Source: a virus. From it: 64,000 bases of DNA. The stretch spans positions 28,859 through 92,858 of the IMG/VR virus record IMGVR_UViG_3300031834_000001. One strand, 5' to 3'. Made by a program: the position numbers and the translations under genes. Under the pieces are notes generated by a model. That model was not told the origin of the DNA, searched no databases, and was given only the letters and a program-made list of their open reading frames with translations. This document shows, one piece after another, positions 9,098-64,000 of this stretch. Each line of letters starts with the position of its first letter. The first letter of the stretch is position 1.

Positions 9098-9429
9098 GCG
9101 ACCACGTCTCCCGCGCCAGGATGCCCATTTCCCAGGACCTCCTCGCCGCCCTCACCCTCCGACCCTGGCAGGCGTTCCTTGTTCGCCTGGCAACCCTGGT
9201 CGGCATGGGCAAACGGCTGACCGACTACTTCCAGGGGCGCGCCCTGGTGGCCCATGTCCGCCGGAGGTTCAACGAGGATTTCCGGCGCAGGTGGGAAGAG
9301 GCGGAGCGGAAGGTGGAGGACGAAATCCTGTACGGCACAGGGTTCAATATCCCGATGGGTATCCTCGATAACCGCGATGACCGGGCGCTCAACGCTTATC
9401 AGGAAGACGAGGAGGTTGACCATGACTGA
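9094..9429 (+). CDS. Hypothetical protein, 111 aa
   Basis: ATG 9094 follows AAGGAGG. Contains 'LTLRPWQAFLVRLATLVGMGKRL', which could be a short membrane-associated helix, then a long charged helix (RRRFNEDFRRRWEEAERKVE) and an acidic tail. Unknown function. Confidence 0.55.
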   Translation: MSDHVSRARMPISQDLLAALTLRPWQAFLVRLATLVGMGKRLTDYFQGRALVAHVRRRFNEDFRRRWEEAERKVEDEILYGTGFNIPMGILDNRDDRALNAYQEDEEVDHD

Positions 9430-9766
9430 CACGCGTACTATCACCCTCCGGTTCGCCGTGGACATCGAGGTGGCCGTGGTGGATGGCCGGATAAGCCTGG
9501 ACGGTGTTCGCGGGGCCGCCTTGGCCAACCTGGCTACCCAACTTGAGAAACTCTGCTTGCCGGGCCGGACGCTCCTCGTATCGCCGGGAACGGTAACGCT
9601 GACCCTGGCTTCCATGCCCGGCGTGGGAGCCACGTTGTCCGAGGCTGGGCGGGGCTTCAGTTTCCTCCCAGCCGTATTGGCCGCTTTCCACGTCAAACCT
9701 GTCGGGCCTCGTGGGTTGGAGTGCCGGGAGATCATCATCGACGAATTGAGCGAGAAGGCCCCATGA
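9422..9766 (+). CDS. Hypothetical protein, 114 aa
   Basis: ATG 9422 overlaps by 8 bases. Strand-rich at the N terminus (TITLRFAVDIEVAVVDG), then a helix 'LANLATQLEKLCL' and more strands. Probably a compact alpha/beta protein. No motif recognised. Confidence 0.55.
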   Translation: MTDTRTITLRFAVDIEVAVVDGRISLDGVRGAALANLATQLEKLCLPGRTLLVSPGTVTLTLASMPGVGATLSEAGRGFSFLPAVLAAFHVKPVGPRGLECREIIIDELSEKAP

Positions 9767-9903
9767 CTCTCCCCCTCATCTTCCATGTCACCCGAGCCCT
9801 CCCGCTCGGACCGTCCTCCTGGCGTTCCGGGACGATACCCGCCGACTGCGGGCCGCCCAAGCCGGGTCAGGTGGTCATGGTGAAGATGGAGGCCGACTCT
9901 TGA
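9763..9903 (+). CDS. Very small hypothetical protein, 46 aa
   Basis: ATG 9763 overlaps the previous TGA (ATGA), and the frame ends TGA overlapping the TTG start of csf1. The perfect fit between two coupled genes argues it is translated. The sequence is proline-rich with a C-terminal 'PGQVVMVKMEADS' strand. It may serve to couple translation into csf1. Confidence 0.5.
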   Translation: MTLPLIFHVTRALPLGPSSWRSGTIPADCGPPKPGQVVMVKMEADS

Positions 9904-12045: not shown

Positions 12046-12530
12046 TTCACGGATTCTGGACGCGCCACGAAAGCCGGGCCATAGCGGCTTTGTTGGTCTA
12101 CGGCATCTACCGCTCGCGAGACCAGGGCCGTTTCAAGGTCACGCCCGACATGTGGGGCCGGATTGAGCGGGCGGTCAAATCCTGCGCCCTGAGCGCTCAG
12201 GACTTGGAGGAATTCATCGACCGCTTCAAGTCCAAGATGCAGTGTTCGACCATCCACCCCCGATACATGCGGTCCGACCTCGGCGTCGGCCAAACTCTTG
12301 TTGAGGACCGCAGGACCGGCGAAATCCTCGGTACCAGCGGCGACCGCCGGGAATTCTGGGTGGAAATTCTGGAGGACGCCGACCACAAGGCCGCCCTGGA
12401 CGCCCTGTACCGCCAGACAGGCGCGGTTGTCGCCTTGGTCCGTGACCGCCTGGAGCGCGAGAAACCCCTGGAAGCCATGATTGGAGAGGAGACGCGAAAT
12501 GACGGCGACACCGACAACAAGGCCGAGTAG
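12006..12530 (+). CDS. cas11: Cas11-like small subunit of the type IV-B effector, 174 aa
   Basis: Predominantly helical protein of the size seen for type IV-B Cas11. It lies directly before csf2 and overlaps it by 32 bases. Helices include 'QPEERSLIHGFWTRHESRAIAALLVYGIYRS' and 'AQDLEEFIDRFKSKM'; the tail is acidic. Cas11 subunits line the belly of Cascade-like complexes and stabilise bound nucleic acid. Sequence conservation in this family is low, so the call rests on position, size and helix content. ATG 12006 follows AAAGGAGG. Confidence 0.62.
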   Translation: MSTGTFQPEERSLIHGFWTRHESRAIAALLVYGIYRSRDQGRFKVTPDMWGRIERAVKSCALSAQDLEEFIDRFKSKMQCSTIHPRYMRSDLGVGQTLVEDRRTGEILGTSGDRREFWVEILEDADHKAALDALYRQTGAVVALVRDRLEREKPLEAMIGEETRNDGDTDNKAE

Positions 12531-13557
12531 TTCCTATAAAACCTACTACTTGGAGGGCATCGTGACCCTCCTGTCCCCCCTGTCGCATATCGGGGAGAAT
12601 CTCGGCACGACGACCCACTTTTCCCGGCAGGCCATCGTCGGCCCCGACGGGAAACGCGTGGAGTGCTTCGCCCATTCGGGCAACGGGTTCCGGGGTCACT
12701 TCCGGGACGATGGGGTGAAGCACCTCCTCCGCGCCCTGGGTAGCCCGAACCTGCCGCCCAAGCCGTTTCACCTGCTCTTCGGTGGCGGCACGATGACCGG
12801 GGAATTCGTGGTGGACATTGACCTCGCCCGGCGACTCCGGGAAGCCCTGCCTCTCCTATCTCTCTTCGGGGCCGCGACGGGCAATCACATCATGCCCGGC
12901 AAGTGGAACACGGGTATCCTGTGGCCAATCTGCGCCGAGACGCAACGGCTCCTCCCGGCCTATCTGCGGAACCCCGAGGCCCCGTCCTGCCGGACGTGGA
13001 TAACCGAACTCAACTTCAGCAGAAAGGACGACGGGAAGGATGAGCGGCTAACCCGACACATGCTACCCGGCGCGACGGGCCAGTTGGCGTTAGGGGGAGC
13101 CGAGCCCACGCCGAAAAAGAGGGGCAAGGGCAAGCCTAGCGACGACGGGGAGGCCGGGGACGAACCGGCCCAGCAGATGCGCTATACCGTCCAGGCCCTC
13201 GCGGCGGGCGGCGAACTCTTCCAACGCATCCACGTCCTCGACGCCACCGAGTTGGAGTTCGGGGCTCTCATGTCCTGCTTCTCCGAGTGGTCCCAGGCCC
13301 CCTATCTGGGCGGCAACAACGCGAAGGGCCTGGGGCTCGTTGCGGGCGAGTGGACCTACCAGACCGGCGAGATGGACGAACCGGCCCCGCTAGTCTCCGC
13401 CGGGCCGGGGGAGTTCGCGCCGAAGAACGCGGGCAAGGAGGCCCTGGACCGCTACGACGCCTATCTCCTCGACGCCTACGAGAGGTACATTTCGGGCAAC
13501 GCGCCCGAAATCAGGCAGGCCCTCGGGGTAAGCGGAGGGGTCCATGGAACCGCTTAG
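12499..13557 (+). CDS. csf2: Csf2 (Cas7-like backbone) of a type IV-B CRISPR effector, 352 aa
   Basis: RAMP-fold backbone subunit. Visible hallmarks are 'TLLSPLSHIGE' at about 22-32, 'HSGNGFRGHFRD' at about 58-69, 'SLFGAATGNHIMPGK' in the middle, 'QMRYTVQALAAGGELF', and a glycine-rich RAMP loop 'YLGGNNAKGLGLV' at about 269-281. A lysine-rich insert (KKRGKGK) lies near residue 210. In known type IV-B complexes Csf2 polymerises along RNA. ATG 12499 has GGAGAGGAG just upstream. It sits between cas11 and csf3 with overlaps on both sides. Confidence 0.85.
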   Translation: MTATPTTRPSSSYKTYYLEGIVTLLSPLSHIGENLGTTTHFSRQAIVGPDGKRVECFAHSGNGFRGHFRDDGVKHLLRALGSPNLPPKPFHLLFGGGTMTGEFVVDIDLARRLREALPLLSLFGAATGNHIMPGKWNTGILWPICAETQRLLPAYLRNPEAPSCRTWITELNFSRKDDGKDERLTRHMLPGATGQLALGGAEPTPKKRGKGKPSDDGEAGDEPAQQMRYTVQALAAGGELFQRIHVLDATELEFGALMSCFSEWSQAPYLGGNNAKGLGLVAGEWTYQTGEMDEPAPLVSAGPGEFAPKNAGKEALDRYDAYLLDAYERYISGNAPEIRQALGVSGGVHGTA

Positions 13558-14230
13558 GGTGATCGCTACTCTCGAAACCGGCCAGGTGGCCACGTTCGAC
13601 GGGAATCTCCCGCTCGATGGTATCATCGCGGCCGCCTGGATGCGCCGGTATCACCCGGATGCCTTCTGGACCGGCGCGCCGAACCGCATGGGCGAGGACT
13701 GGATTGAGCCTATCCTCCCCCTTGACCGGCGCGTGTCGGACGGGGAGTGGTACTGGGCTTCCTCGTTCGCCCGGTACCGCCAACTGTCCGAGGAGATCAC
13801 CTACTGGCATAAGAGGTTCGACGACGACATGGAACACTTTCTCGACTTGGGCGGCCGGAGTGGTAGGATGAATGTGAAGTCGGGGCCATTTAAGAGTTAC
13901 CGGATGCCCCTGGTCTACATGGTCACGCCGGAGCTAGTCTGGCACATCGTTGGCGACAGGGGGGAAGTGGCGAGCCTACTCGGCATGATACCCGCCGTCG
14001 GCAAGAAGCGCTCGGCCGGCTATGGTTTCGTGGCCTCCTGGGTGGTCGAACCCTGGCCGGTGGACCTCTCCTGCCATGATGAGCGCGGGAGACCGATGCG
14101 AGCCATTCCGACCAGGGACGGCCCGTCCGAATGTGGGGTCAGGCCGCCCTACTGGCATCCGGTGAACCGGGTTAGGTGCGAGATGCCTGCCCCGTGGGGA
14201 GGAACTGGGGAGTGGGAGAGACAGGGATAA
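13544..14230 (+). CDS. csf3: Csf3 (Cas5-like) of a type IV-B CRISPR effector, 228 aa
   Basis: RAMP protein beginning 'PLRVIATLETGQVATFDGNLPLDGIIAAAWMRR', the typical Csf3 opening in which 'LPLDGI' precedes the first helix. A glycine-rich loop, G153-KKRSAGYGFV, near residues 153-163 is the Cas5/Cas6-type loop. Csf3 normally caps one end of the Csf2 filament. It overlaps csf2 by 14 bases and shares its last base with the next start. No separate Cas6-like crRNA nuclease gene is seen nearby. Confidence 0.83.
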   Translation: MEPLRVIATLETGQVATFDGNLPLDGIIAAAWMRRYHPDAFWTGAPNRMGEDWIEPILPLDRRVSDGEWYWASSFARYRQLSEEITYWHKRFDDDMEHFLDLGGRSGRMNVKSGPFKSYRMPLVYMVTPELVWHIVGDRGEVASLLGMIPAVGKKRSAGYGFVASWVVEPWPVDLSCHDERGRPMRAIPTRDGPSECGVRPPYWHPVNRVRCEMPAPWGGTGEWERQG

Positions 14231-14748
14231 TGTTTCCGTGCCTGGGGGTCAAGCTGGTTCCGGCGGACAAGGTAGTCTGCAACGGCTACAATCCCAACAA
14301 GGTGGCGCGGCGAGAGCTCGACCTGCTGGAACTCTCCATCAGGGAGGATGGGGTGACTCAGGCGCTCGTGGTCTACCATGATGTTGGGGCCGACAAGTAC
14401 GTCATTGTGGACGGGTTCCACCGCTACGTCGTCCTGGTTCGCCTGGGGTGTGCCGAGATCCCGGTAGTCGTGATCGACAAGGACCTGAGAAACCGCATGG
14501 CGAGCACTGTCCGGCACAACCGGGCGCGGGGCAAGCACCAGGTGGACTTGGTGGCCGAGTTGGTCAAAGCGCTCCTCGCCAAGGGATGGGACGACGCGAG
14601 GATAGCGGAGCATCTCGGGATGAGCGCGGAGGAACTGCTGCGCCTGAAGCAGATCGTCGGTGCCGCCAAGTTGCTGGCTGGCACGGAGTATTCGGCGTCT
14701 TACGGGAGGGACGATGAGCCGGATGGGCAGGATTCATCTGACAGATAA
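14230..14748 (+). CDS. IbrB-like ParB/Srx-fold protein, 172 aa
   Basis: The N-terminal half has the ParB/sulfiredoxin-like core: 'YNPNKVARRELDLLELSI', 'EDGVTQALVVY', and the D61-GFHR motif followed by 'IPVVVIDKDL'. The C-terminal half 'RMASTVRHNRARGKHQVDLVAELV' plus 'EHLGMSAEELLRLKQIVG' is the helix-turn-helix part characteristic of IbrB. IbrB is normally paired with IbrA, a PAPS-reductase-like protein; here the IbrA homologue begins about 750 bases downstream (15493). Biochemistry of IbrAB is poorly understood; an ATP- or sulfur-dependent nucleic-acid role is plausible. Confidence 0.75.
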   Translation: MFPCLGVKLVPADKVVCNGYNPNKVARRELDLLELSIREDGVTQALVVYHDVGADKYVIVDGFHRYVVLVRLGCAEIPVVVIDKDLRNRMASTVRHNRARGKHQVDLVAELVKALLAKGWDDARIAEHLGMSAEELLRLKQIVGAAKLLAGTEYSASYGRDDEPDGQDSSDR

Positions 14749-15496
14749 CCACGATCAACTGGACCTGCCGAGAGGACGCGAGGCGGTCTGGCTCCATTCC
14801 GCAAAGGACCGCAGGCCGCGGGCGGAGCGGTGCGTCACGCTCCCGGAGTTCCTGGATGCCCCCTGGGAGAGCGTCAAGGGTGCGGACCTCCTCGTCGTTG
14901 TCGGTCTCGTTTCCCGCCTTTGCACTCCCGGCAACAGGGTGCGCCTGGGCCAGTATCTCACCGACCCCTGGAATGGCCCCGAGCGCGTCTCGGTAGACGA
15001 CAGGTTGTTCATCGTCGATCCGTGGCGCATGTGGTGGCACTTTGGTTGCGTAGGCATCGACTTCGGGGGATGCTCCGTGAGTTATACCTTGGAGACTCGT
15101 TGGAACGGTTTCGTGGTGGGGATGAGGGAGAACCCCTGCACCCCTTCTGAACTCGACCGCTACGGCCTTGGCGTCATTGACGCCCGCGGAGCCTTCAAGT
15201 TCGAGCCGATCAACATTCACGTCGAACCCATGCCGGAGGAGGTTCGCGAATGCTACGCCGCCGAGAAAGAGGTCGCCTTCAACGAGGAGGCGACTCCGGC
15301 GGCGATCATCAAGCGCCTGGCCGCCTTCGCTTCATCGGTCTACCCGTCCCGGTCGGTGCCTTCGTTTAGGGACATGTTCCGCAACCGCCACCTTGAGGTC
15401 CGGGCCACAGACCTTGGCGTGGACCGCTTCCTGGCGAACCAGATTTCTCTCCGGGTTGAGTTGACCAACTACGCCGCCGAGAGCTTCGCCGTATGA
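14714..15496 (+). CDS. Unknown protein between the IbrB- and IbrA-like genes, 260 aa
   Basis: ATG 14714 overlaps the IbrB-like gene by 35 bases and ends overlapping the IbrA-like start by 4, so all three are tightly coupled. The N-terminal half has a hydrophobic strand 'KGADLLVVVGLVSRL' and 'RLFIVDPWRMWWHFGCVGIDFGG'. The C-terminal half is helical and acidic. No catalytic signature is recognised. Its position suggests a third component of an IbrAB-type system. Confidence 0.6.
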   Translation: MSRMGRIHLTDNHDQLDLPRGREAVWLHSAKDRRPRAERCVTLPEFLDAPWESVKGADLLVVVGLVSRLCTPGNRVRLGQYLTDPWNGPERVSVDDRLFIVDPWRMWWHFGCVGIDFGGCSVSYTLETRWNGFVVGMRENPCTPSELDRYGLGVIDARGAFKFEPINIHVEPMPEEVRECYAAEKEVAFNEEATPAAIIKRLAAFASSVYPSRSVPSFRDMFRNRHLEVRATDLGVDRFLANQISLRVELTNYAAESFAV

Positions 15497-16548
15497 ATGT
15501 CTACGAGGGGGCCGTAAACCGAATTAGGTTCATCTTCGCCGAGTTCCCGCGTGTGGTCGTCAGCGTCTCCGGCGGGAAGGACAGCACGTGCCTATTCTAC
15601 CTGGCGGCGGCAGAGGCGGAGCGGCAAGGGCGGCGCTTCGAGGTGTTCTTTCTGGACCAGGAAGCGGAGTATCAGAGTTCCGTCGAGATCATTGAGGGGA
15701 TGATGCGGCACCCGCTAGCGATCCCGCGTTGGTACCAGGTGCCCATCCATATGACCAACGCTACGAGTCACGCCGAACTCTTCCTCCACGCCTGGGGTGA
15801 GGGTGAAACTTGGATACGCGAGAAGAGCCCGCTGGCGATTCACGGCATCCCCGAACCATACCCGAAGCGGTTCTACGACTTCTTCCCCTGGTTTGAGAGT
15901 CTGGACCGGGAGCCGACGGCGCACCTGGTCGGCCTGCGGCAGTTCGAGAGCCTAAACCGTCACCGGGCGGTCTACAAGGCCAATGGGTACAAGCACTATA
16001 AGTGGAGCACCCGATGCGCTCCAGGAAGCGCGAGTTACCGCTTCTATCCGATTTTCGACTGGCAATTCCGCGACGTGTGGAAGTGCATCGCCGACAACAG
16101 TGTCCCCTACAACAAACTCTATGACCGCATGTACGCCCGGAGCGGCGCGAACATGAGCACCATGCGCGTGTCGAACCTCATCCACGAGCGGGCATTCCGG
16201 GCGCTGGCGCAGGTGCAGGAGTTCGAGCCGGACACCTACGACAAATTGGTCGCCCGGTTGGGCGGGGTGCATTGCGCCGCGCTCTACGCCGAGGACCGCT
16301 ACATCTTTAGCGCCGACCGCCTGCCACCCGCGTTCAAGTCGTGGCGGGAGTACCGCGACTACCTATTGGCGACGACGCCGTCAAGCACGCAAAGCCGCTA
16401 CCTCAAGCGCTTCGCCAAGCAGGACGCCGACGAGTCTGCCTGTCAGCACCAGGTCAAGCAGTTACTCCTCAACGACTGGGAAGGCAATCTTCCGATCACG
16501 CGGCAGAAGAGGCGGAAGGTCCGGGAGCAATGGTGGGACCTCCTATGA
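15493..16548 (+). CDS. IbrA-like PP-loop enzyme (PAPS reductase/DUF3440-type), 351 aa
   Basis: The PP-loop SGGKDS is at residues 26-31, followed by 'FEVFFLDQEAEYQSSVEII' and 'HLVGLRQFESLNRHRAVYK'. Later come 'FYPIFDWQFRDVWKCIADN' and 'PYNKLYDRMYARSG', features of the PAPS-reductase-like IbrA family. PP-loop enzymes adenylate a substrate with ATP before sulfur or nitrogen transfer. Partnered upstream by an IbrB-like ParB protein. Type IV-B loci are known to associate with cysH-like genes, so its place after csf3 is meaningful. The substrate is unknown. Confidence 0.8.
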   Translation: MNVYEGAVNRIRFIFAEFPRVVVSVSGGKDSTCLFYLAAAEAERQGRRFEVFFLDQEAEYQSSVEIIEGMMRHPLAIPRWYQVPIHMTNATSHAELFLHAWGEGETWIREKSPLAIHGIPEPYPKRFYDFFPWFESLDREPTAHLVGLRQFESLNRHRAVYKANGYKHYKWSTRCAPGSASYRFYPIFDWQFRDVWKCIADNSVPYNKLYDRMYARSGANMSTMRVSNLIHERAFRALAQVQEFEPDTYDKLVARLGGVHCAALYAEDRYIFSADRLPPAFKSWREYRDYLLATTPSSTQSRYLKRFAKQDADESACQHQVKQLLLNDWEGNLPITRQKRRKVREQWWDLL

Positions 16549-17099
16549 CCGATATTATCATCAGGGCCTGCCGGGAGCGGCAAGCATGGGTGGACTATCT
16601 TCTCGACCGGCTACCGGGGGCCACGGTTGTCTACGATACCACGCGCAACGCGATGAACACCTTCCTCGAAGCCCTGCGAGTTGCCGGCGACCGCCCGGTT
16701 ATCCACATGGAGGACGACGTGCTCCTCGCGAAGGGGTTCGTCTGCAAGGCCGAGTCGGTGATAGGCGAACGTCCCGAGACGGCCATTCAGTTCTTCTCGA
16801 TGCGCAAGCGGGACATCCAGGTTGGGTCTAGGTGGGAACCCGGAGGGACCTTCCTAGCGGGCCTATGCTTCTACTTGCCGGCCGGGATGTCCGAGCGGCT
16901 CCTGCGCTTCGACTGGCCCCGTCGGGAGGAGCATCCCACCGGCCTAGACTTGCTGGTCGCCGATTTCCTGCGGGCCAACAAGGAGAGGTACTGGCTACAT
17001 GTCCCCAATCTGGCGCAACATCGGTTTGGCAAGAGTCTGATCGATTCCCGCCGCTCGCGCTATCGGCAGTCGTTGACCTTCGAGGACCCCGACGAATGA
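16545..17099 (+). CDS. Glycosyltransferase-like protein, 184 aa
   Basis: Contains 'RPVIHMEDDVLLAKGF' near residues 45-60, a metal-binding EDD in the position of the DxD motif of GT-A fold glycosyltransferases. 'GTFLAGLCFYLPAGMSERLLRF' follows, and then an alpha/beta C terminus. It is short for the family (184 aa). ATG 16545 overlaps the IbrA-like stop. Phage glycosyltransferases often decorate modified bases; given PP-loop genes on both sides, a DNA-modification role is an attractive inference only. Confidence 0.6.
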   Translation: MTDIIIRACRERQAWVDYLLDRLPGATVVYDTTRNAMNTFLEALRVAGDRPVIHMEDDVLLAKGFVCKAESVIGERPETAIQFFSMRKRDIQVGSRWEPGGTFLAGLCFYLPAGMSERLLRFDWPRREEHPTGLDLLVADFLRANKERYWLHVPNLAQHRFGKSLIDSRRSRYRQSLTFEDPDE

Positions 17100-17845
17100 C
17101 GGAGGACGAAATGGAGTTGTATCACCTCCATGCCCGGCTTCCCCGCGTCCGCCGTTTGACCGCGCAGGCCATGTCCGACCTTCGCGACTGGCGGGCCAAC
17201 TGTTCCCGCCCTTACGTCGCTTGGTCCACCGGGAAGGACTCGACCCTCTGCTTGTGGCTCGCTCTCCAGGTGGACCCGAATGTCGAGGCTATCTACCTTG
17301 ACGCCGAGTCTTCCCTCCCGGAGACAGAGGAGATGCTCGACACCCTGCCCGCCCAGTGGGGCTTCCGCCTCCGAGTAGTCAAGACACGGCCGCTTCTCGA
17401 CATGCTGGCCCAGTATGGCTTGGACGACCCGCATATCGAGGAGCGGACGATGCAGGCAACCGTCCGGGAACCGATTAAACGGCTGAGACGCGAGGGATAC
17501 GACGGCGTTGTCGTGGGCATTCGCGCCGATGAGAGCCGGGGCAGAATGAAAGGCATTAACCGCATGGGGCGACTTTTCTGGAGCAAGTCGTCCGGGATGT
17601 TGACCTGCTGGCCTGTGGCCCGATGGACAAGCCGGGATGTCTGGGCTTACACGGTGGCCAACGGGCTCCCCTATAACCGGGCCTACGACAAGCTCCTGGG
17701 TTGGCCACTTGAGGAGCGGCGAGTCTCCTACTGGGCGGGCGAGACCAACAGGGAATGCGGCCGCTACGTCTGGCTCCGGCGGTACCACCCCGACCTTTAT
17801 GCCCAACTGGTTGCCCGACTCCCGCGAGTAGGCAACTTTGTCTGA
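17096..17845 (+). CDS. cysH: CysH-like PP-loop enzyme (PAPS reductase family), 249 aa
   Basis: The PP-loop STGKDS spans residues 44-49 (PYVAWSTGKDSTLCLWLAL). It is followed by 'VEAIYLDAESSLPETEEMLD', 'GVVVGIRADESRGR', and 'CWPVARWTSRDVWAYTVANGLPYNRAYD', which are the adenylyl-binding and CysH core motifs. It lacks an obvious C-terminal catalytic ECG-type cysteine motif, so sulfate reduction is unlikely. cysH-like genes are a recognised neighbour of type IV-B csf genes. It overlaps the glycosyltransferase-like gene by 4 bases. Confidence 0.78.
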   Translation: MTEDEMELYHLHARLPRVRRLTAQAMSDLRDWRANCSRPYVAWSTGKDSTLCLWLALQVDPNVEAIYLDAESSLPETEEMLDTLPAQWGFRLRVVKTRPLLDMLAQYGLDDPHIEERTMQATVREPIKRLRREGYDGVVVGIRADESRGRMKGINRMGRLFWSKSSGMLTCWPVARWTSRDVWAYTVANGLPYNRAYDKLLGWPLEERRVSYWAGETNRECGRYVWLRRYHPDLYAQLVARLPRVGNFV

Positions 17846-17863
17846 CCTGAACCCGCCGCCCTA

Positions 17864-18066
17864 AAGGAACCTCCCCGTTCCCGCCTCAACTACCACCCAG
17901 ACCCTGAACGCTAGGAGGCCGACTCGCCGCCGTGTCCGACTCTCCATCCCCCGTCACCCTGCTTACCGGAGACTGCCTGGTGGCCAAGAGTAGGCAGAAG
18001 GAACCTCCCTTGTCCGCTCTCAACTACCAGATAGACCCTGAAAGCGAGGAAGCCCAGTCGCCGTGA
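17864..18066 (+). repeat. Imperfect direct repeat of about 70 bases
   Basis: The segment at 17864-17934 (starting AAGGAACCTCC) is repeated imperfectly at 18000-18066. Translated, they read KEPPRSRLNYHPDPER-stop and KEPPLSALNYQIDPESEE. The first copy follows the CysH-like stop in the same frame without a start codon; the second ends a small frame. This looks like a duplicated gene end. Confidence 0.6.
17932..18066 (+). CDS. Possible small protein, 44 aa
   Basis: GTG 17932 begins a 44-codon frame (SDSPSPVTLLTGD...) that ends TGA overlapping the GTG of the next gene. GGAGG lies about 14 bases upstream. Its C-terminal half is the second copy of the local repeat. Could be a remnant rather than a working gene. 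Confidence 0.4.
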   Translation: MSDSPSPVTLLTGDCLVAKSRQKEPPLSALNYQIDPESEEAQSP

Positions 18067-18278
18067 AGATCATTGAGCACCTCGACGGCCGCTCCTACGC
18101 TGACGACCAGACTCTCCGCGAACTCCACTGGTCCGGCCTGCTCGACTTGCCGCGCCTGCTAACCTGGCTCAGACGGGAGCCCGTGGCGGGTTGTGAGTGT
18201 CCGGTCAACGTAGGAAGCGAGGAGTGCTGGGGGCTCATGCGGCCGCAGGGGGTCAGCGGGGGGAGGGTCGGGAGATGA
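18063..18278 (+). CDS. Hypothetical protein, 71 aa
   Basis: GTG 18063 in a GTGA overlap. It starts MKIIEHLDGRSYADDQTLREL, has a 'LLDLPRLLTWLRRE' helix and a C-x-C/C cluster. The tail is glycine/arginine rich. Function unknown. Confidence 0.5.
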   Translation: MKIIEHLDGRSYADDQTLRELHWSGLLDLPRLLTWLRREPVAGCECPVNVGSEECWGLMRPQGVSGGRVGR

Positions 18279-18544
18279 AGGAAGCCTGGGACGCCATGAT
18301 ACGCAAGTTGCGCCGGGCCATTCTGAGGTGGCTATTCACGCCGGAACCCAAGCGGTGCCCGAAGTGCAAGTCGGCCAAGGTGGAGCATGCGACCGGCGGG
18401 ATAAGCACCACCTTCAGTTTCACCTTTGAGGCCCGTTGCCGAGCCCGTGGCCACGAGTGGGCGGAGCGCCGCAGGGATAACAACTGGTCCGGCTGGTACG
18501 ACCCGAACCGCAACCCGTACGACAGGGAGGCGGGGAAGACGTGA
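18275..18544 (+). CDS. Small zinc-ribbon protein, 89 aa
   Basis: A basic N-terminal helix (MIRKLRRAILRWLF) precedes 'KRCPKCKSAKVEHA', a CxxC zinc ribbon half. A second half (C-R-A-R-G-H-E-W) follows after a strand pair, so this is a one-ribbon C2-CH protein. Probably binds nucleic acid or protein. ATG 18275 overlaps the previous TGA. Confidence 0.55.
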   Translation: MKEAWDAMIRKLRRAILRWLFTPEPKRCPKCKSAKVEHATGGISTTFSFTFEARCRARGHEWAERRRDNNWSGWYDPNRNPYDREAGKT

Positions 18545-18945
18545 GCGAGCCCATTCGCCCATCAAGTGTCCCGGCTAACCCCTACTCCCTCTTCAACCTG
18601 GCGACCGTCACCTATGCGCCGCCCGACTGCGCCGTGGTCAAGATGGGGAGCGACGCCTGCCTGCTCGACACGGCAACCGGGAAGGCCCTGGTGTTCAAGT
18701 CGGGCTGGGAGGAAGAGGTGTTCGGGCCGACCCCCGTGGACGACTCAACGGACGAATCCTGCCCGGATTGCCCGCTCGACAAGTGTGTTAGGTACGACCC
18801 AAACGACCCCAGGTCATGCCCATGGGACCGCGCCACCGGGTACGTCGGGGACTTCAAGGAGGGACACCCGAAGCGAGACGTGCTTGCCAAGGTTGTGCCG
18901 ATGCGGACAAGGGAATGGGGGAAAGAGGATGCTCGGGATGAGTGA
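18541..18945 (+). CDS. Cysteine-rich hypothetical protein, 134 aa
   Basis: GTG 18541 (GTGA). Residues about 76-100 contain four or five cysteines, C-P-D-C-P-L-D-K-C then S-C-P-W, suggesting a zinc or iron-sulfur site. The N-terminal part is strand-rich. No family recognised. Confidence 0.55.
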   Translation: MSEPIRPSSVPANPYSLFNLATVTYAPPDCAVVKMGSDACLLDTATGKALVFKSGWEEEVFGPTPVDDSTDESCPDCPLDKCVRYDPNDPRSCPWDRATGYVGDFKEGHPKRDVLAKVVPMRTREWGKEDARDE

Positions 18946-19276
18946 CGAGACCAGGGTGAGGGTAACCCATTTCGAAATTAGGGGCCGCCAATGCGTCTGC
19001 CTTGCCGCCCAGATTAATGACGATGGCCTATGGAACGACCTTGGCCCCCACTTCTATGTCGGCCCGCCAAATTGGTTTGAGCGGCTATGCGGGGTGACTC
19101 TGGGGGCCAAGATCGAGCGGGCGAGGGAGCGGCTAGCCTCGCGAGTCGCGGCGTCGGTCAAGATATACCAATCCGTGCGCGCCGCGTGCGGACCATGGTT
19201 GTCCGACCTGGGCGACACTGGCCCGGCTTCCATGGCGGGCGACATCATCCCGCCTTCGCCAAGGAGGCCAGAGTAG
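18938..19276 (+). CDS. Hypothetical protein related to the 6919-8128 family, 112 aa
   Basis: ATG 18938 is preferred, 9 bases after AGAGG; ATG 18929 is possible. It contains 'GPPNWFERLCGVTLGAKIERARERLASRVAASV', the same aromatic block followed by a basic helix seen in the genes at 6919, 7449 and 7796, so it is a distant paralogue separated by 10 kb. Function unknown. Confidence 0.55.
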   Translation: MSDETRVRVTHFEIRGRQCVCLAAQINDDGLWNDLGPHFYVGPPNWFERLCGVTLGAKIERARERLASRVAASVKIYQSVRAACGPWLSDLGDTGPASMAGDIIPPSPRRPE

Positions 19277-19278
19277 CC

Positions 19279-19539
19279 ATGGAGCCCCTCGCCGTCCTCA
19301 CCCGCCGCGCCGACGGTGGCTTCACCCTCTCCCCCATCCCGGACACGGTTGCCGGGCGGCACTGGCTAGCCGAGGGCGGCAGGACGCCATGGACTAACTG
19401 GCCCATCGTGAGGGACTGGGGGCAGGCGGGGCCGGTGGGAAGCGGCGTGGATGACAAGGTGGAACCGGGCAGACCGGAAGTCCGGGGATTTTGGGCGAGG
19501 TTGGGGAGACGGCAAATGACTAAGGGGCGCGGACTATGA
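19279..19539 (+). CDS. Hypothetical protein, 86 aa
   Basis: ATG 19279 is 2 bases after the previous stop, with AAGGAGG upstream. Begins MEPLAVLTRRADGGFTL; the middle has 'AGRHWLAEGGRTPWTNWPIV'. The C terminus is basic. No domain recognised. Confidence 0.5.
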   Translation: MEPLAVLTRRADGGFTLSPIPDTVAGRHWLAEGGRTPWTNWPIVRDWGQAGPVGSGVDDKVEPGRPEVRGFWARLGRRQMTKGRGL

Positions 19540-20270
19540 GATGGACCCAGGTAGTCAGTGGAGGCATCGACATCGGGGAAACCATGGGTTACAAGCTCCT
19601 CGCCGGCGGGCTCATTAAGCAGGCCCTCGACGATGTGGCCGACGGTTGTCTTGAGGCCCTCCTCTTCCTCCTGCTCGACATGCGGACCGAGTCCCTCTGC
19701 GAGGACGTGCCGGACCCGCCTATCTTCGGCTACCACGAGGTTCGCAAGGAGGCCGCGAAAAAGTGGCGGGAGGCCAGGTTGACCAAGTCGGCCCTGCGAT
19801 GCGAGGAACACTGGCCGTCCCCGTGCATGGTGGCCCCCACGGCTCCCTGCTTCACGGGGTCTGTCGGGGGGTGCCCGCTCAGAGTGTCTCGCGTTAGCGA
19901 ACGCGGCAAACGGAAGCCAGTGGCTCCCCTGGTCGCCGAGGACCCCTCGCCGGTTAGGGTCCTCATCTACGGCTCGGAGGGTTGGGCCGATGAGGTCGTT
20001 TTGGGGGCCGTGTTGGGGCGGTTTCCCCTGGACTCCGTGGTTATCCACGCCGACCGAGCGGGCGTGGAACAAGTGGCGAGCAAGGTGGCCGGAAAGCTGG
20101 GGCTGGCGACGGAACTCTGGACTCCTGCGCGGGAGAGGTTCCCCAGGGCGGACGTGGCGTTCGGCTTCGTTGCGCGGGGCGAGCCGGACGCGAGGAGCCG
20201 GGCGCTAAGGGTGAGGCTAGAGAGATCGGGAATGCCGAACTGGATGTACAAGGGAGGCGGTAAGACGTGA
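19536..20270 (+). CDS. SLOG-fold (YspA/DUF2493-like) protein, 244 aa
   Basis: The C-terminal ~105 residues match the YspA-like SLOG fold: 'VRVLIYGSEGWADEVVLGAVLGRFPLDSVVIHADRAGVEQVA' followed by 'KLGLATELWTPARERF'. SLOG domains are Rossmannoid and bind nucleotide-derived ligands; several act as sensors or effectors in conflict systems. The N-terminal ~125 residues resemble a separate phage domain with long helices. ATG 19536 overlaps the previous TGA. A nucleotide-binding protein near a csf locus with three PP-loop enzymes is notable. Confidence 0.7.
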   Translation: MRWTQVVSGGIDIGETMGYKLLAGGLIKQALDDVADGCLEALLFLLLDMRTESLCEDVPDPPIFGYHEVRKEAAKKWREARLTKSALRCEEHWPSPCMVAPTAPCFTGSVGGCPLRVSRVSERGKRKPVAPLVAEDPSPVRVLIYGSEGWADEVVLGAVLGRFPLDSVVIHADRAGVEQVASKVAGKLGLATELWTPARERFPRADVAFGFVARGEPDARSRALRVRLERSGMPNWMYKGGGKT

Positions 20271-20848
20271 ACGCCAACGCCGCGCCGGGAACCGTGACAA
20301 CCGCCCAGGCCGACTGGATTCTTTTCAACCGGGTCGAACTGCGCGGCCTGGCTGAAGCTATCATGCCCAAGACTTCTACCTCCATCGTGGCGTTTGGGGT
20401 AACAGGGGGAGCCGATGAGTCGCCCATCGAGACCACGGCCATCGAGAGGGCCCAGATTACCTATGTGCTAGATGAAGCGGACAAGGCCATCCGGGATCGC
20501 TGCGCCGGGTGGAGAGACCGCAAGAGGCGCAAGATGTTCCTGCGGATCGTGGCCCTTTGGTACGATGAGTGGAAGACGTGGAGGGAGATAGACCAGGCCA
20601 TCTACTATACCCAAGTCCACTGTAGGCGCTTCCGGGGCATGGCGAGACAGGCGGTCAAGGAGAGGTTGGCGAGCCTGCCGGGCACGGCGATGAAGGACTT
20701 CTGGAAGGCCGCGAGGACACACACTTTGGGGCATGTTGAAACTAATATTAATGAGAGGTTGGCGGAGGCTAGTCTAGCAGGGAGAACAGGGCAAAAGGCG
20801 AGGGCAAAGATGATCACTTTTGGAGGGGTTTCGGAGGTGACACGATGA
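20267..20848 (+). CDS. Probable late-gene transcription regulator (ArpU/RinA-like position), 193 aa
   Basis: Last gene of the left operon, directly before the late promoter and terminase module, where Gram-positive phages carry ArpU/RinA-type late activators. The core 'YVLDEADKAIRDRC' ... 'LRIVALWYDEWKTWREIDQAIYYTQVHCRRFRGMARQAVKERL' has a sigma-region-4-like helix-turn-helix. GTG 20267 overlaps the SLOG gene. The functional call is from position plus a helix-turn-helix-like region. Confidence 0.55.
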   Translation: MNANAAPGTVTTAQADWILFNRVELRGLAEAIMPKTSTSIVAFGVTGGADESPIETTAIERAQITYVLDEADKAIRDRCAGWRDRKRRKMFLRIVALWYDEWKTWREIDQAIYYTQVHCRRFRGMARQAVKERLASLPGTAMKDFWKAARTHTLGHVETNINERLAEASLAGRTGQKARAKMITFGGVSEVTR

Positions 20849-47480: not shown

Positions 47481-48296
47481 CTACGGCGTTCCTCCCGCCG
47501 CTATGTATGCGGCCTGGGCGGCGTCTAGAGCCTGCTGGTACGCAAGGTTTGCCACTCGCACGCTTTCTCGATAGACACCCCAAACGAGATCGCACGCTTC
47601 GCGGTCATCGGCGTAAATCGGTTCCTGGGGGTAGGGGAAGCCCAGGGCGGCGAGAGCCGCGTTCCGCGTCTGCGTGGCTTCGGCATACGCCGCATCGCGA
47701 ACCTCCATGGCCGCCGCGGTGGCTTCCTCCAACTGAATCCTCGGATCCACTTCCAAGGCTTCCATCGCGAACATCCCTCCCGCCTCCAGGTAGGCCGCTC
47801 TGGCTGCGGCGTAGGCGTCTTCCCGGATCGCGTCGGCCGCCAGGCACGCCTGCACCCAGTTGGCGTGATCCACGCCGGGGCCGCTAGAGTAGTTGGCTGC
47901 CACGAACACGGCGTAAGCCGCCTGGGCCGCCACGTCATAAGCGGCGTCCGCTGCGACGATGGCCGCCTCATAGATTTCTTCCGCCGTGGCTTCCTCGCCC
48001 AGGATGGTGACTGTTCCCGTCCCAGCCGTCCCGGAGGGCTGAGTCTCCACGGCCGCCGTCTTCGTCTTGGGATCCCAGTTTACCCGGCCGCCCAAGCTCT
48101 CCTCAACAGACCGGAGCGGCACGAACACCCTGTCGCCGATGAGAACCGCCGGGGCATCGCTGGCCAGCCTCTGGCCATTGATGGTGACCGAGACCACCTG
48201 GAACCCCTTGTAGGTCGAGGACCCCGCCAGGCCGAGGCTTCCCAGGCCGACGGCGCACAACATGACGACCAGGGCTAGAGTTATCGCCCTCTTCAT
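47481..48296 (-). CDS. Secreted copper-amine-oxidase N-terminal (stalk) domain protein, 271 aa
   Basis: The product starts MKRAITLALVVMLCAVGLGSLG, a signal peptide. The CuAO stalk domain follows: 'VTINGQRLASDAPAVLIGDRVFVPLRSVEESLGGRVNWDPKTKTAAVE'. The remaining ~170 residues are an alanine-rich helical region of AYxAAxxA-type repeats. Stalk domains are abundant on Bacillota surfaces and rare in phages, so this is probably host-derived cargo. It runs leftward with its own promoter (48330-48338) and AAAGGAGG site, independent of the late operon. Confidence 0.8.
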   Translation of the reverse strand: MKRAITLALVVMLCAVGLGSLGLAGSSTYKGFQVVSVTINGQRLASDAPAVLIGDRVFVPLRSVEESLGGRVNWDPKTKTAAVETQPSGTAGTGTVTILGEEATAEEIYEAAIVAADAAYDVAAQAAYAVFVAANYSSGPGVDHANWVQACLAADAIREDAYAAARAAYLEAGGMFAMEALEVDPRIQLEEATAAAMEVRDAAYAEATQTRNAALAALGFPYPQEPIYADDREACDLVWGVYRESVRVANLAYQQALDAAQAAYIAAGGTP

Positions 48297-49500: not shown

Positions 49501-50670
49501 GTGGATCGCACCATAAGACTCCCGCTTTTCCCGACTCCCGAGCAAGCCGCCGCCCTCGCCGAGACAACCCGGCAGTTTACCGCCGTTTTCAACGCCGCTT
49601 GCATCTGCGGTTGGGAGAACCGGGTACATAACGCGATACGCCTCCACTACCTGGTCTACCATCCGCTCAGGGCTCAATACCCCGCCCTCGCTAGCGACCT
49701 TCACATCCAGGCAAGGGCCAGGGCCGCTCAAACCGTGAGGTCTGCCTTCGCCCTGGCCAAGAAGGGTCGCAAGGTATCGGCTCCCCGCTCCCGCTCCTGC
49801 CCGCCGCGTTATAACCTGCACACGTTCAAGCTTGACTGGGCCGCAGGGTTGGTCAGGTTGTCCTCTGTCTCCGGGCGGATGACCGTTCCGTTCCGGGTGC
49901 CCGAGTATGCTGGGCGGTACGTAGGTTGCAAGACCCGCACCGCCGACCTCGTCGAGCGGGATGGGCGTTTCTGGCTTCATGTCTCCCTAGACGTTCCCGC
50001 TCCGCAGACGACTCTGGTTAACGCCGTGGTCGGCGTGGACCTTGGGATAGCCCAATCCGCCGTCACGTCCGACGCCCGCTTCCTGGGCGAGGGGTCTTGG
50101 CGAAATACCGAAGATCGGTACTTTCGCGTGAGGCGGGCTTTGCAGAAACGAGGGACAAAGAGCGCCAAGAGGCACCTCGGCAGGCTCCGGGGGAAACAAA
50201 GCCGCTTCCGCCAGGACTGCGACCATGTCTTGAGCAAAGCGATTGTCCAGACCGCGCCGCCAGGGGCCACCATCGTCCTGGAGGACTTGACCAACATCCG
50301 GTCCCGAGTCAGGGTTCAACGTGGCCAACAGGCCAGACGCCTCCATTCCTGGAGTTTCAACCAACTTCGTCAGTTCGTCGAGTACAAAGCGGAAGAGCGG
50401 GGTTGTACGGTGGCCCTGGTCGATCCCAGGCATACCTCGCAGCGATGCTCCCGGTGCGGCCATACCGCACGGGACAACCGCCGCTCCCGCGCTCTGTTCG
50501 TCTGTCGGCAGTGCGGTTTCAGCCTCCATGCCGACCTCAATGGGGCGCGAAACATAGCCGCCAAGTACCGTGCCGGGCTCGGCATGTCCGAACCCGGCGG
50601 GCCGCCTGTCAACCGGCCTATCGTGGCGCACGGAGACATCTCCTTGCAGCCGCAAGCCGTCGCCCCTTAG
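49501..50670 (+). CDS. tnpB: IS200/IS605-family TnpB nuclease, 389 aa
   Basis: RuvC-type catalytic residues D180 (VVGVDLG), E261 (VLEDL) and D345 (HADLNGARN), plus a C-terminal zinc ribbon CSRCGHTARDNR...CRQCGF. GTG 49501 has GGAGG upstream. TnpB is an RNA-guided nuclease; its guide RNA normally overlaps the gene's 3' end. No TnpA partner is present. The stop codon lies in a hairpin (50657-50677), and truncated amidase sequence begins right after it. Confidence 0.9.
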   Translation: MDRTIRLPLFPTPEQAAALAETTRQFTAVFNAACICGWENRVHNAIRLHYLVYHPLRAQYPALASDLHIQARARAAQTVRSAFALAKKGRKVSAPRSRSCPPRYNLHTFKLDWAAGLVRLSSVSGRMTVPFRVPEYAGRYVGCKTRTADLVERDGRFWLHVSLDVPAPQTTLVNAVVGVDLGIAQSAVTSDARFLGEGSWRNTEDRYFRVRRALQKRGTKSAKRHLGRLRGKQSRFRQDCDHVLSKAIVQTAPPGATIVLEDLTNIRSRVRVQRGQQARRLHSWSFNQLRQFVEYKAEERGCTVALVDPRHTSQRCSRCGHTARDNRRSRALFVCRQCGFSLHADLNGARNIAAKYRAGLGMSEPGGPPVNRPIVAHGDISLQPQAVAP

Positions 50671-51676: not shown

Positions 51677-52822
51677 GTGATCGTCCATCAGGCATTCCGC
51701 TATGAGCTCGACCCGAACACCGCCTCTCGCGAAGCCTTGGCGCGACACGCCGGGGCCGCCCGCTTCGCCTATAACTGGGGCCTGGACATTTGCAAGGCTT
51801 GCCTAGATGTTGAGGAGCGTCCGCCGAGTGCCATGACTCTCCACCGAATCTGGAACAGGTGGAAGCGGGATAATATACCCTGGTGGAGCGATGTCTCCAA
51901 GTGCGCCCCGCAGGAGGCTTTCCGTGATCTCGACCGCGCTTTCCAGAACTTCTGGCGGGGGAGGAAGACGGGGAAGCGTGTCGGCTTCCCTCGCTTCCAC
52001 AAGAAGGGCCGGGACGACCGCTTCCGGCTCACGCAAATTGGGCGCGTCCTCTCCCGTGCCGTGATCTTGCCCCGCCTGGGCCCCATCCGGACCAAAGAGC
52101 CGGCGGACAAGTTCCGGGGTCGAGTCCTATCCGCTACGGTATCCCGCGAGGCGGATCGTTGGTATGTGTCCTTGGCGGTGGAGCGGGAACGCCCCGACCC
52201 CGCTCCAGTTTCCGGCCCCGTCGTGGGTGTTGACCTCGGCTTGAACTGCTTCGCGGTCTTGTCGGATGGGACTCGTGTCGAGTCGCCCAAGCCCCTGGCG
52301 CGAAGCCTGCGCCGCCTTCGCCGGAGGAGTCGCGCACATAGCCGGAAGCAAAGAGACTCGGTTAATCAGGCCAAGGCAGCCATGGCTCTGGCCAGGCTCC
52401 ATCGGCGCATCCGCAACCAACGGCGGGACTTCCTCCACAAGTTGACCACGGGACTGGCGAAAACCAAGTCGGTTATCGTGGTCGAGGACTTGTCCGTAGC
52501 CGGGATGGTCCGTAACCGCCGCCTGGCCCGGAGTATCGCCGACGCCGGGTGGTCGGAGTTCCGCCGGATGCTGGCCTACAAGACCGTCTGGTATGGTTCG
52601 CAATTGGTGGTCGGCCCGCGCTTCTTCCCGTCCTCGAAGACGTGCTCGGCCTGCGGTGCGGTGAAGTCGAACCTATCCCTGGCCGAACGGACTTACCGCT
52701 GCGACTCCTGCGGTCTTGAGATGGACCGCGACTTGAACGCCGCGCTCAACCTGGCGCGGCTCGTCGCCGGGAGTTCCCCGGAGACGGTAAACGCCTGTGG
52801 AGCGGACGTAAGACCCGCCTAG
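51677..52822 (+). CDS. tnpB: Second TnpB nuclease, distinct from the first, 381 aa
   Basis: GTG 51677. RuvC residues D186 (GVDLG), E270 (VVEDL) and D352 (MDRDLNAALN), with zinc ribbon CSACGAVKSNL...CDSCGLEM. N-terminal domain 'FRYELDPNTASREALARHAGAARFAYNWGLD' is the usual TnpB/OrfB opening. It is a different subfamily from the copy at 49501. The stop is in a CCCGC-CTA-GCGGG hairpin (52814-52826), so the omega-RNA end may be similarly placed. Confidence 0.88.
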   Translation: MIVHQAFRYELDPNTASREALARHAGAARFAYNWGLDICKACLDVEERPPSAMTLHRIWNRWKRDNIPWWSDVSKCAPQEAFRDLDRAFQNFWRGRKTGKRVGFPRFHKKGRDDRFRLTQIGRVLSRAVILPRLGPIRTKEPADKFRGRVLSATVSREADRWYVSLAVERERPDPAPVSGPVVGVDLGLNCFAVLSDGTRVESPKPLARSLRRLRRRSRAHSRKQRDSVNQAKAAMALARLHRRIRNQRRDFLHKLTTGLAKTKSVIVVEDLSVAGMVRNRRLARSIADAGWSEFRRMLAYKTVWYGSQLVVGPRFFPSSKTCSACGAVKSNLSLAERTYRCDSCGLEMDRDLNAALNLARLVAGSSPETVNACGADVRPA

Positions 52823-60811: not shown

Positions 60812-60826
60812 AGAATCCAAGAGAGG

Positions 60827-60852
60827 CCGCCCCAGCAAGGGGCGGTCTTCTC
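60827..60852. terminator. Bidirectional terminator hairpin
   Basis: CCGCCCC (60827-60833) pairs with GGGGCGG (60839-60845) around AGCAA, followed by TCTTCTC. It lies just before the end of the leftward methyltransferase gene and ends rightward transcription. Confidence 0.6.
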
Positions 60853-60856
60853 GTTT

Positions 60857-61432
60857 CTACTCCACCCTCTGCCACACGAACGCCATTCTGACCCGGTGGT
60901 TCGTTGACCCCGCGATTCCCACGGTCCCCACAAGCAACACGTCCGCCTTCCGGTACATCGGGAGCACCGTGTCCAGCCAGACTAGGAAGCCGCCCGGTCT
61001 GAGCGCCTTGGCGCACTCGCCTACCACCCTCTTCCTGTTGACCGGCCCCGTCCCATACTTCGCTGAGTCCTCCTTGGAGTATGGCGGGTCGGCCAGGATG
61101 AGCCCGAATCTCCCCTCCCCCACCAGGTTTCCCAGGTCATGCGCGTCTCCCACGATGTCCGGGTTCATGTCGGCGCGAATGTCCAGCCTCAAACCCTGGC
61201 CCGCCTGCACGGACCCGGCGAACAGGTGGAGGGTCATGTCCGGCGGGATGTCCGGGAAGAGCGTGGTCACCCGGTCGAGATAGCCCGGCGGGTAGGACCC
61301 ATAGTATCCGGAGCCCCGGTAGTTGTTGCCGCCCATCCAGACTCCGGTCAGCCAACGGTCCGTGCCGACCATGGGCGGGCGAGTCGGCCAACGGGAGTTG
61401 TAGAGGGCGGCGCGGTCGGCAAGGGTTAGCAT
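60857..61432 (-). CDS. DNA methyltransferase-like protein (DPPY motif), 191 aa
   Basis: The start ATG at 61430-61432 (minus) has a GGAGGTG ribosome site. Motif I-like 'LHLFAGSVQAGQGLRLDI' and motif IV 'GLILADPPYSKED' at about residues 110-120 suggest amino-group methylation of adenine or cytosine. 'KALRPGGFLVWLDTVLPMYRK' follows. It is the last gene of the leftward operon, which includes a nuclease-like protein, so restriction-modification or anti-restriction is possible. Confidence 0.75.
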   Translation of the reverse strand: MLTLADRAALYNSRWPTRPPMVGTDRWLTGVWMGGNNYRGSGYYGSYPPGYLDRVTTLFPDIPPDMTLHLFAGSVQAGQGLRLDIRADMNPDIVGDAHDLGNLVGEGRFGLILADPPYSKEDSAKYGTGPVNRKRVVGECAKALRPGGFLVWLDTVLPMYRKADVLLVGTVGIAGSTNHRVRMAFVWQRVE

Positions 61433-61830
61433 GTCGGCACCTCCACCTCGCTCGACTCGGTGCATCTCCACAGTCTAGTCCCCACTCTGACGCCTCCCAC
61501 CATGTCCAGCAGCTTCTTGACGCCCAACCCGTCCGGGAAGGCGACGGTTACCCCGTTCACCGTGACCCACAGGTTGACCGGGATTCCCTCATCCTTCGTG
61601 GTGGCCCGGAATCTCAGGCACCTCTGCGTCGCCCTAGTCGCCCACTCTTCCCTATCGGGGAAGTTTCCTTCGGTGAGTCTCAGACCCCACGCGGGATCCC
61701 CGACCATCGAGGCGGCCAGGTCCCACGCGGCGGCTGGCGGGATCGCCGCGGCGAACCGGGCCTGGTAGACGGCCAGGCGCGGAGCAGGGGGCCGGCCGAA
61801 CAGGGGGAGTTGGGCTTCGATAGGTCTCAT
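61426..61830 (-). CDS. Unknown protein in the leftward operon, 134 aa
   Basis: ATG at 61828-61830 (minus) overlaps the nuclease-like gene and, at the other end, the methyltransferase by 7 bases. Begins MRPIEAQLPLFGRPPAP. A strand-rich end ('VNLWVTVNGVTVAFPDGLGVKKLLDMVGGVRV') may form a small barrel. Could be a specificity or adaptor subunit; this is inference. Confidence 0.55.
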   Translation of the reverse strand: MRPIEAQLPLFGRPPAPRLAVYQARFAAAIPPAAAWDLAASMVGDPAWGLRLTEGNFPDREEWATRATQRCLRFRATTKDEGIPVNLWVTVNGVTVAFPDGLGVKKLLDMVGGVRVGTRLWRCTESSEVEVPTC

Positions 61831-62477
61831 GGTTCCCCCGTCAGTCCCAGGTCGGCCATGATTTGCCGGGCCACCTCGGGGTCATGGGGTGTCTGCGGGC
61901 GGCGTGGCTTGACCACTTTAGCCGGGAGAACCCCTCGCCACCGGAGGGCCGATTCGCGCGGTGAGGATCGGCGAACGAAGGCTTCCCCGGTCTCCAACGC
62001 CCTCACGTAGTCTATGGCCTCCGTGTTGCCCAGGTCGAACTCGCCGTCGAGGGGGGCCGTGATTAACTGGATAACGATGGCCAGCGGGCCGCAGTAGAGG
62101 GGAAGTCGGTCCGCCGGGGCGACCCGCCGGGCCTCCAGGATGACCCTCGCCGACTCGGTTCCCACGGCCACCAATCCGACTCCGGCTTCCTCGAAGGCCG
62201 GGAGGTTCCTGGCCGCCGGGGCGACATACTCCTCCGCCATGCCCACCCAGGAGTAATCGACGTGCCAGCGATTCCGGGCCGCCTGGGCCAACGCGCGTCT
62301 CCAGTCGGACACCTTGAGTTCGACGGCCACCATGTCACCGTCGGCGAACCAGGCCACCAGGTCGGCGAGGCAGTTCCCGATGTTGCAGACCTCGCCCAGG
62401 ATGGACCCCGCGCCGCGACTGGTAAGCCAGGCCATCGCCGGGGCCGTCAGGGATGACTCGGGACGCCTAGTCCTCAC
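61827..62477 (-). CDS. PD-(D/E)XK-like nuclease, 216 aa
   Basis: GTG at 62475-62477 (minus) overlaps the upstream stop (GTGA). 'LADLVAWFADGDMVAVELKVSDWRRALAQAARNRWHVDYSWVGMAEE' has D39 ... E53-L-K55 in the spacing of PD-(D/E)XK nucleases. A following helix 'RRALAQAARNRWH' is typical of restriction or Holliday-type folds. C-terminal part is basic. Function as a restriction-like nuclease is inferred. Confidence 0.6.
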   Translation of the reverse strand: MRTRRPESSLTAPAMAWLTSRGAGSILGEVCNIGNCLADLVAWFADGDMVAVELKVSDWRRALAQAARNRWHVDYSWVGMAEEYVAPAARNLPAFEEAGVGLVAVGTESARVILEARRVAPADRLPLYCGPLAIVIQLITAPLDGEFDLGNTEAIDYVRALETGEAFVRRSSPRESALRWRGVLPAKVVKPRRPQTPHDPEVARQIMADLGLTGEP

Positions 62478-62833
62478 GACCACGCCGCCGCCCACATGGC
62501 TTGAAGGAGTCGATGGAACGCCTCGCCGAATTGGGCGGGCTCGCACTCCACGCATAACTCCCCTCTCTTCTCCTCTACCCCGAACCCGGCCAGGGTGACT
62601 CGCAGGGCGGCCCAGTCTACATCGCGGCCGGACATGGCCCGATCGTCTAGGGTGTCCGCGCTATCCGTCAGGCGCAGGCGTCCGTCGTCGCCGGTCCAGA
62701 CGTCAATGACCATGCAGTCATTGTGGCGATCCAGGAACGGCGTGATAATCCTCGTCCACTTGCTCCCAGTGGCCTCGGTGCGAAACTGGCCGCCCAGATA
62801 GGCCAGGTAGGACGCGGCGAAATCGGTAGGCAT
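62474..62833 (-). CDS. DUF1828-domain protein, 119 aa
   Basis: ATG at 62831-62833 with AAGGAGG upstream. 'WTRIITPFLDRHNDCMVIDVWTGDDGRLRLTDSADTLDD' is the DUF1828 signature (TPFxDxHxDxIxIYVxxxxGxxxLTDDGxTLxxL). First gene of a four-gene leftward operon. DUF1828 proteins are uncharacterised and often lie in defence or mobile contexts. Confidence 0.72.
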   Translation of the reverse strand: MPTDFAASYLAYLGGQFRTEATGSKWTRIITPFLDRHNDCMVIDVWTGDDGRLRLTDSADTLDDRAMSGRDVDWAALRVTLAGFGVEEKRGELCVECEPAQFGEAFHRLLQAMWAAAWS

Positions 62834-62922: not shown

Positions 62923-62965
62923 TTGACAACGGGGTCGGGATGGGATACAATGTAGACAGATGGAG
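62923..62965 (+). promoter_or_regulatory. Sigma-A promoter with repeated element (copy 3)
   Basis: TTGACA (62923-62928), 17-base spacer, TACAAT (62946-62951), a near-perfect promoter. The element GGATACAATGTAGACAG at 62943-62959 is the same as at 56963 and 57306 over 17 bases. It drives the final rightward genes and faces away from the leftward operon. Confidence 0.75.
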
Positions 62966-63855: not shown

Positions 63856-64000
63856 ATGGGCGAGGTGGATAAGCTCGAACGCAAGGAGTGTCCGATCAAT
63901 CTCTGGTACCTGAGCCACCGGGCCGCCGACGTTGAGGAGTTCGCCGGGGAGCACGGTTTCTTGGACCTAACGACCGCGACTTGCCGGATATGCGAGGAGT
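63856..64000 (+). CDS. Hypothetical protein, N-terminal part (runs off the window)
   Basis: AAAGGAG precedes ATG 63856. The 48 visible codons begin MGEVDKLERKECPINLWYLS and end near CRICEE. A cysteine pattern C-P-I... C-R-I-C suggests a zinc site. The gene continues beyond base 64000. Confidence 0.55.
   Translation, partial: MGEVDKLERKECPINLWYLSHRAADVEEFAGEHGFLDLTTATCRICEE

Follow-up and report, generated by a model that had tools for sequence, protein, structure and literature searches.

The DUF1828 domain is known from the candidate defence system PDC-M24, in which a DUF6978 gene lies adjacent to a gene encoding a fused DUF1828-DUF1829 protein; in the two canonical PDC-M24 systems that were scanned, the gene upstream of DUF1828 matches PF22398. 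DUF1829 has also been found in HipAD/DS-6, a validated defence system (PMC13092281). The phage methyltransferases of phrog_3816 are elsewhere solitary. Among nucleases, the MmcB-like proteins (3dnx) and EndoMS/NucS have a D...ExK...Q arrangement, and EndoMS carries an additional N-terminal domain. In the haloarchaeal phage phiH (PhiH1_420-430), a relative of the nuclease described here lies near an N6/N4 methyltransferase. Most of these share a feature with a locus in IMG/VR record IMGVR_UViG_3300031834_000001, of which positions 28,859 to 92,858 form a stretch of 64,000 nucleotides (hereafter the window). Four leftward open reading frames occupy positions 60857-62833 of the window; these, and the two elements at their borders, are as follows:

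62474..62833, minus strand: stand-alone DUF1828 protein, 119 aa (PF08861)
61827..62477, minus strand: nuclease of the PD-(D/E)XK fold, 216 aa, starting at GTG 62477
61426..61830, minus strand: protein without a recognised family, 134 aa, no relatives found
60857..61432, minus strand: DPPY-containing class I SAM methyltransferase, 191 aa, starting at ATG 61432 (phrog_3816)
60823..60849, plus strand: hairpin with T-rich tail that terminates the rightward neighbour and may act in both directions
62923..62951, plus strand: sigma-70-type promoter that reads away from the cassette, TTGACA-17-TACAAT

All four frames are intact. As the original prediction had described, they run against their neighbours, being flanked on either side by rightward genes, and they overlap by 4 to 7 bases: GTGA (4), ATGA (4) and ATGCTAA (7), in gene order from DUF1828. 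The cassette had also been said to be bounded by a terminator and a divergent promoter; both elements exist, but they belong to the rightward neighbours, since the T tract of the hairpin lies on the plus strand and the promoter reads rightward. A search for a sigma-70-type promoter serving the leftward cassette found none. A good Shine-Dalgarno sequence (GAAGGAGGGG) precedes the ATG of the DUF1828 gene, the methyltransferase gene has its own (GTGGAGGTG), and third-codon-position G+C in the four genes is 79-87%, as in the structural genes of the phage. Overlaps of 1-10 bases are ordinary in this phage, where they join 55 of 137 rightward neighbouring gene pairs, and those of the cassette are therefore no evidence of a special module. 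The uncommon feature is instead orientation: a simple codon-usage gene call placed 8 of 151 open reading frames on the whole contig leftward, four of them in the cassette.

The DUF1828 assignment was borne out by a match to PF08861 over residues 31-114 (E = 7.5e-17). Against PADLOC PDC-M24B, the protein aligned only with the N-terminal half, residues 4-115 falling on positions 6-121 of a 255-position profile. Whereas PDC-M24 has a fused DUF1829 half and an adjacent DUF6978 gene, the cassette protein stops after DUF1828 with no Pfam match to DUF1829, none of the four cassette proteins matches PF22398 in Pfam, and DUF1828 is followed by a separate nuclease and methyltransferase. For the 134-aa protein, Pfam, PHROGs, NCBIfam and PADLOC yielded nothing significant and viral contigs no match, the best phage match having E=0.5. 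Its candidacy as a DUF6978 relative was rejected, there being no match, and a weak resemblance to YAF2_RYBP (Pfam, E=0.22) was dismissed as chance.

By sequence, the nuclease matched no family in Pfam or NCBIfam, an antiporter model in the latter (E=0.12) being rejected as chance. Relatives were reached via haloarchaeal phage phiH, then Arthrobacter and haloarchaeal plasmids, with others in archaeal, planctomycete and Pyrinomonadaceae genomes. An alignment of 14 sequences, the cassette protein and 13 relatives, showed A52, E54, L55, K56, W60, Q66, A67 and G102 to be invariant (numbering follows P0002, whose first codon precedes the GTG by one; subtract 1 for GTG numbering); E30 and D40 are retained in most non-haloarchaeal rows. 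The cassette nuclease has the D...ExK...Q arrangement as D40, E54, K56 and Q66, together with E30. AlphaFold, run on a shallow alignment, predicted a core at about residues 6-122 with pLDDT of about 97, and predicted the C-terminal tail of about 95 aa poorly. When this model was searched with Foldseek, the top PDB match was 3dnx (MmcB-like, E=2e-6), followed by SfsA and NucS/EndoMS, whereas HindIII matched much more weakly; the structural matches include viral proteins annotated as MmcB-like, many of them in phages. Because fold and motif agree, the assignment of a PD-(D/E)XK-fold protein, with a predicted alpha-beta-beta-beta-alpha-beta core and its catalytic positions kept, is supported; the original prediction had been staked on this fold, and here predicted core, structural matches and conserved residues all point the same way. 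The likeness to MmcB is structural only, with no sequence match to the family profile (PF06319), and the C-terminal tail is an extra relative to both MmcB-like proteins and EndoMS. DUF1829 was also considered as a hidden PD-(D/E)XK domain akin to the nuclease. By eye, the elements of the two seemed to come in a similar order, but hhalign returned P 0.02 and a probability of 2.3%, and the idea was rejected.

The methyltransferase, predicted from its DPPY motif, matches phrog_3816 ('DNA methyltransferase') over its full length (residues 15-203 of P0004, E=3.1e-44), with the motif in place. It is about 49-53% identical to relatives at three loci (L008, L009 and L010; tblastn gives 51-52%), its ATG at 61432 coincides with the start of its relatives, and DPPY, G73, Y126 and R182 are invariant across 53 aligned phrog_3816 sequences. 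The AlphaFold model, again from a shallow alignment, has a pLDDT of 82, and the nearest solved folds found with Foldseek were the RNA methyltransferases Trm11, TrmN and MnmM, at TM-scores of about 0.5; with RNA enzymes as the closest solved folds, DPPY and the PHROGs label are no proof of a DNA target. Scans of viral contigs recovered phrog_3816 relatives at 64 loci (58 distinct proteins), among neighbours as varied as portal genes, C5 (Dcm) and N6/N4 methyltransferases, a GTP cyclohydrolase-like gene and others, which suggests that the enzyme normally acts without a dedicated nuclease; the cassette copy differs in being the last gene of a leftward operon that contains one. No recognisable DNA-recognition domain was detected in either the nuclease or the methyltransferase with Pfam, PHROGs, NCBIfam or PADLOC.

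The original prediction had called for the same four genes to be sought elsewhere, and on this point it was not upheld: the complete set was absent from all phage, plasmid, viral-contig and genome records searched, and only the methyltransferase-nuclease pair recurred, once. Scans of viral contigs for close relatives of the DUF1828 protein, the nuclease and the 134-aa protein singly returned nothing. None of the other cassette genes stood near DUF1828 at any of 36 cellular loci (two bacterial phyla, centred on a Pyrinomonadaceae and a planctomycete genome, with flanks of about 1.5 kb), and homologues of the nuclease or methyltransferase stood beside it at none of 12 viral loci. The single recurrence, at one of 58 other phrog_3816 loci, is in IMGVR_UViG_3300031772_000003 (L102), in which the methyltransferase directly overlaps a nuclease homologue (hhalign probability 94.9%, E=4.5e-8). 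Two of the four cassette genes thus have homologues there, overlapping each other, but with the methyltransferase first, AxK in place of ExK, no DUF1828 and other methyltransferases nearby. A whole-record search with profile A8 missed even this homologue and is therefore uninformative.

Partial likenesses were seen at two further sets of loci. In a group of related phage contigs (L083, L086-L088), a short DUF1828 gene comes after D12 or C5 methyltransferase genes, a gene for a VRR-NUC-like protein, or both, the VRR-NUC match falling just under the Pfam cut-off; the kinds of gene beside a stand-alone DUF1828 are those of the cassette, but neither the nuclease nor the methyltransferases are of the same families, and the contigs belong to a single phage lineage. 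In phiH (L004), L018 and L022, which are mutually related elements, relatives of the nuclease have N6/N4 methyltransferases about 3 kb away or less; phiH differs from the cassette in the methyltransferase family, in an insertion in the nuclease and in having no DUF1828. In archaeal chromosomes the nuclease relatives mostly stand alone.

The record that carries the cassette is 92,858 bases long and begins and ends with the same 31 bases (L027:1-31 and window 63970-64000), from which the genome, recorded as linear, is probably closed at about 92,827 bp. Terminase, portal, head protease and tape measure genes mark it as a tailed phage. It encodes three further DNA methyltransferases:

L027:663-1751: N6_N4_Mtase
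L028:11056-12291: N6_N4_Mtase
L028:9064-9558: Dam (PF05869)

The same phage carries a type IV CRISPR effector operon (window 9900-14230, and 14230-17845), with matches to Csf1/Cas8-like (1.5e-23), Cas11 (2.2e-34), Csf2/Cas7 (1.7e-59) and Csf3/Cas5 (2.2e-49). After the effector genes come a ParB-like protein (a by-eye assignment) and a pair of PAPS-reductase (CysH/DndC-like) genes, an order like that of type IV-B. No CRISPR-like repeats were found in window 5000-20500. A published report describes type IV-B components encoded by viruses (PMC10848311). Divergent HTH regulators resembling a cI/Cro switch were seen at L027:5340-5720 (minus strand) and 5888-6103 (plus strand). The phage contig yielded neither an integrase nor a serine recombinase, and a temperate lifestyle by way of an integrase was rejected despite the cI-like/Cro-like pair. 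The genes that follow the tail module include one of a transposase family (window 51677-52822; phrog_506, 3.6e-108), and window 49501-50670 resembles another by eye. A leftward gene inside the rightward late region (window 47481-48296, minus strand) encodes a protein of 271 aa that starts with a signal-like segment and matches the copper amine oxidase N-terminal domain (4.6e-11).

What is established is that the cassette consists of four intact co-oriented genes, with the folds of both enzymes and the conservation of both active sites. We tentatively favour, at a probability of roughly 0.43, an accessory (moron-like) operon comprising an autonomous methyltransferase, an MmcB/EndoMS-like nuclease, and DUF1828 and 134-aa partners. 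As the four genes were together in none of the other records searched, the operon is better regarded as locally assembled, from parts that would travel separately elsewhere, than as an established restriction or defence system. Several observations favour the accessory reading: the phrog_3816 relatives are spread over 58 distinct viral loci and have varied neighbours; the phage bears three other methyltransferases; the MmcB-like structural matches are in many cases in phages and the nuclease relatives are mostly solitary; and the four-gene set is unseen elsewhere, its overlaps being routine for the phage. The methyltransferase would act alone on nucleic acid, most likely phage DNA, and its mark may shield that DNA from host restriction, as may those of the other three enzymes; an anti-restriction role is plausible. 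The nuclease would cut or process DNA, perhaps damaged or competing, with the DUF1828 and 134-aa proteins as its putative binding or regulatory partners. Other observations sit less easily with an accessory operon. An orientation opposed to nearly all other genes, together with strict co-orientation, suggests one regulated unit; the overlapping pair in L102 is hard to explain if the two enzymes are unrelated; and the nearest solved folds to the predicted methyltransferase structure are RNA enzymes.

The main rival, which we consider possible rather than probable, is a compact restriction-modification-like unit in which the methyltransferase would mark phage DNA, the nuclease would cut unmarked DNA of the host or of rival phages, and the DUF1828 protein, the 134-aa protein or both would recognise sequence. 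Conserved catalytic residues in the aligned sequences of both enzymes are consistent with such a unit, as are the second overlapping pair in L102, the proximity of nuclease relatives to N6/N4 methyltransferases in the halophilic elements, and the different phage lineage in which DUF1828 stands beside D12/C5 methyltransferases and a VRR-NUC nuclease. However, the L102 nuclease, the only one at the 58 other methyltransferase loci, has AxK; the nuclease fold is closest to repair enzymes; and the methyltransferases of the haloarchaeal elements, themselves mutually related, are of a different family. Dedicated restriction-modification is not favoured, given that the pair recurs only once, that the methyltransferase is usually solitary and that neither enzyme has a recognisable target-recognition domain. 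Of the restriction-modification-like or anti-defence system originally proposed, the nuclease fold thus stood and an anti-restriction methyltransferase is plausible, while the co-occurrence of the four genes did not hold.

Two other readings carry less weight. The cassette could have arisen from DUF1828-type defence as an abortive-infection or toxin-antitoxin-like module, in which the nuclease would be the effector and the other proteins its controls, and could serve superinfection exclusion. The match to the N-terminal half of PDC-M24B points in this direction, as do the presence of the usual partner domain, DUF1829, in HipAD/DS-6 (PMC13092281) and the type IV CRISPR genes, from which the phage bears defence-type cargo. 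We nevertheless regard the module as unlikely: the cassette lacks both DUF1829 and DUF6978, aligning the profiles of the nuclease and the DUF1829 region with hhalign lent no support, and with no integrase found a lysogenic role is unsupported. Still less probable is that the methyltransferase modifies RNA (for example tRNA or rRNA guanine) and that the operon is translation- or RNA-repair-related cargo. The best solved Foldseek matches are RNA methyltransferases, and DPPY is also present in RNA methyltransferases of these kinds, but the TM-scores are only about 0.5, there is no RNA-binding domain, PHROGs labels the family a DNA methyltransferase, and one relative weakly matches an N6-adenine profile (E=0.015, below the cut-off).

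Recent work links DUF1829, the usual partner of DUF1828, to phage defence, and DUF1828 itself is part of a candidate defence system. Here, a stand-alone DUF1828 has a nuclease and a methyltransferase next to it in two phage settings that are unrelated, as are their enzymes. A more ambitious reading, which we hold to be rather improbable, is that the cassette represents a new minimal phage-borne system for DNA discrimination, in which DUF1828 would provide recognition or control for small PD-(D/E)XK nucleases held in check by a co-encoded methyltransferase, and would be a general adaptor assembled with different enzymes in different phages. Small enough to clone, the cassette offers a way to ask whether DUF1828 serves nucleases as an adaptor for recognition or control. 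Should it be no such adaptor, the cassette would still be a clean example of a large phage that carries a methyltransferase and a nuclease as accessory cargo.
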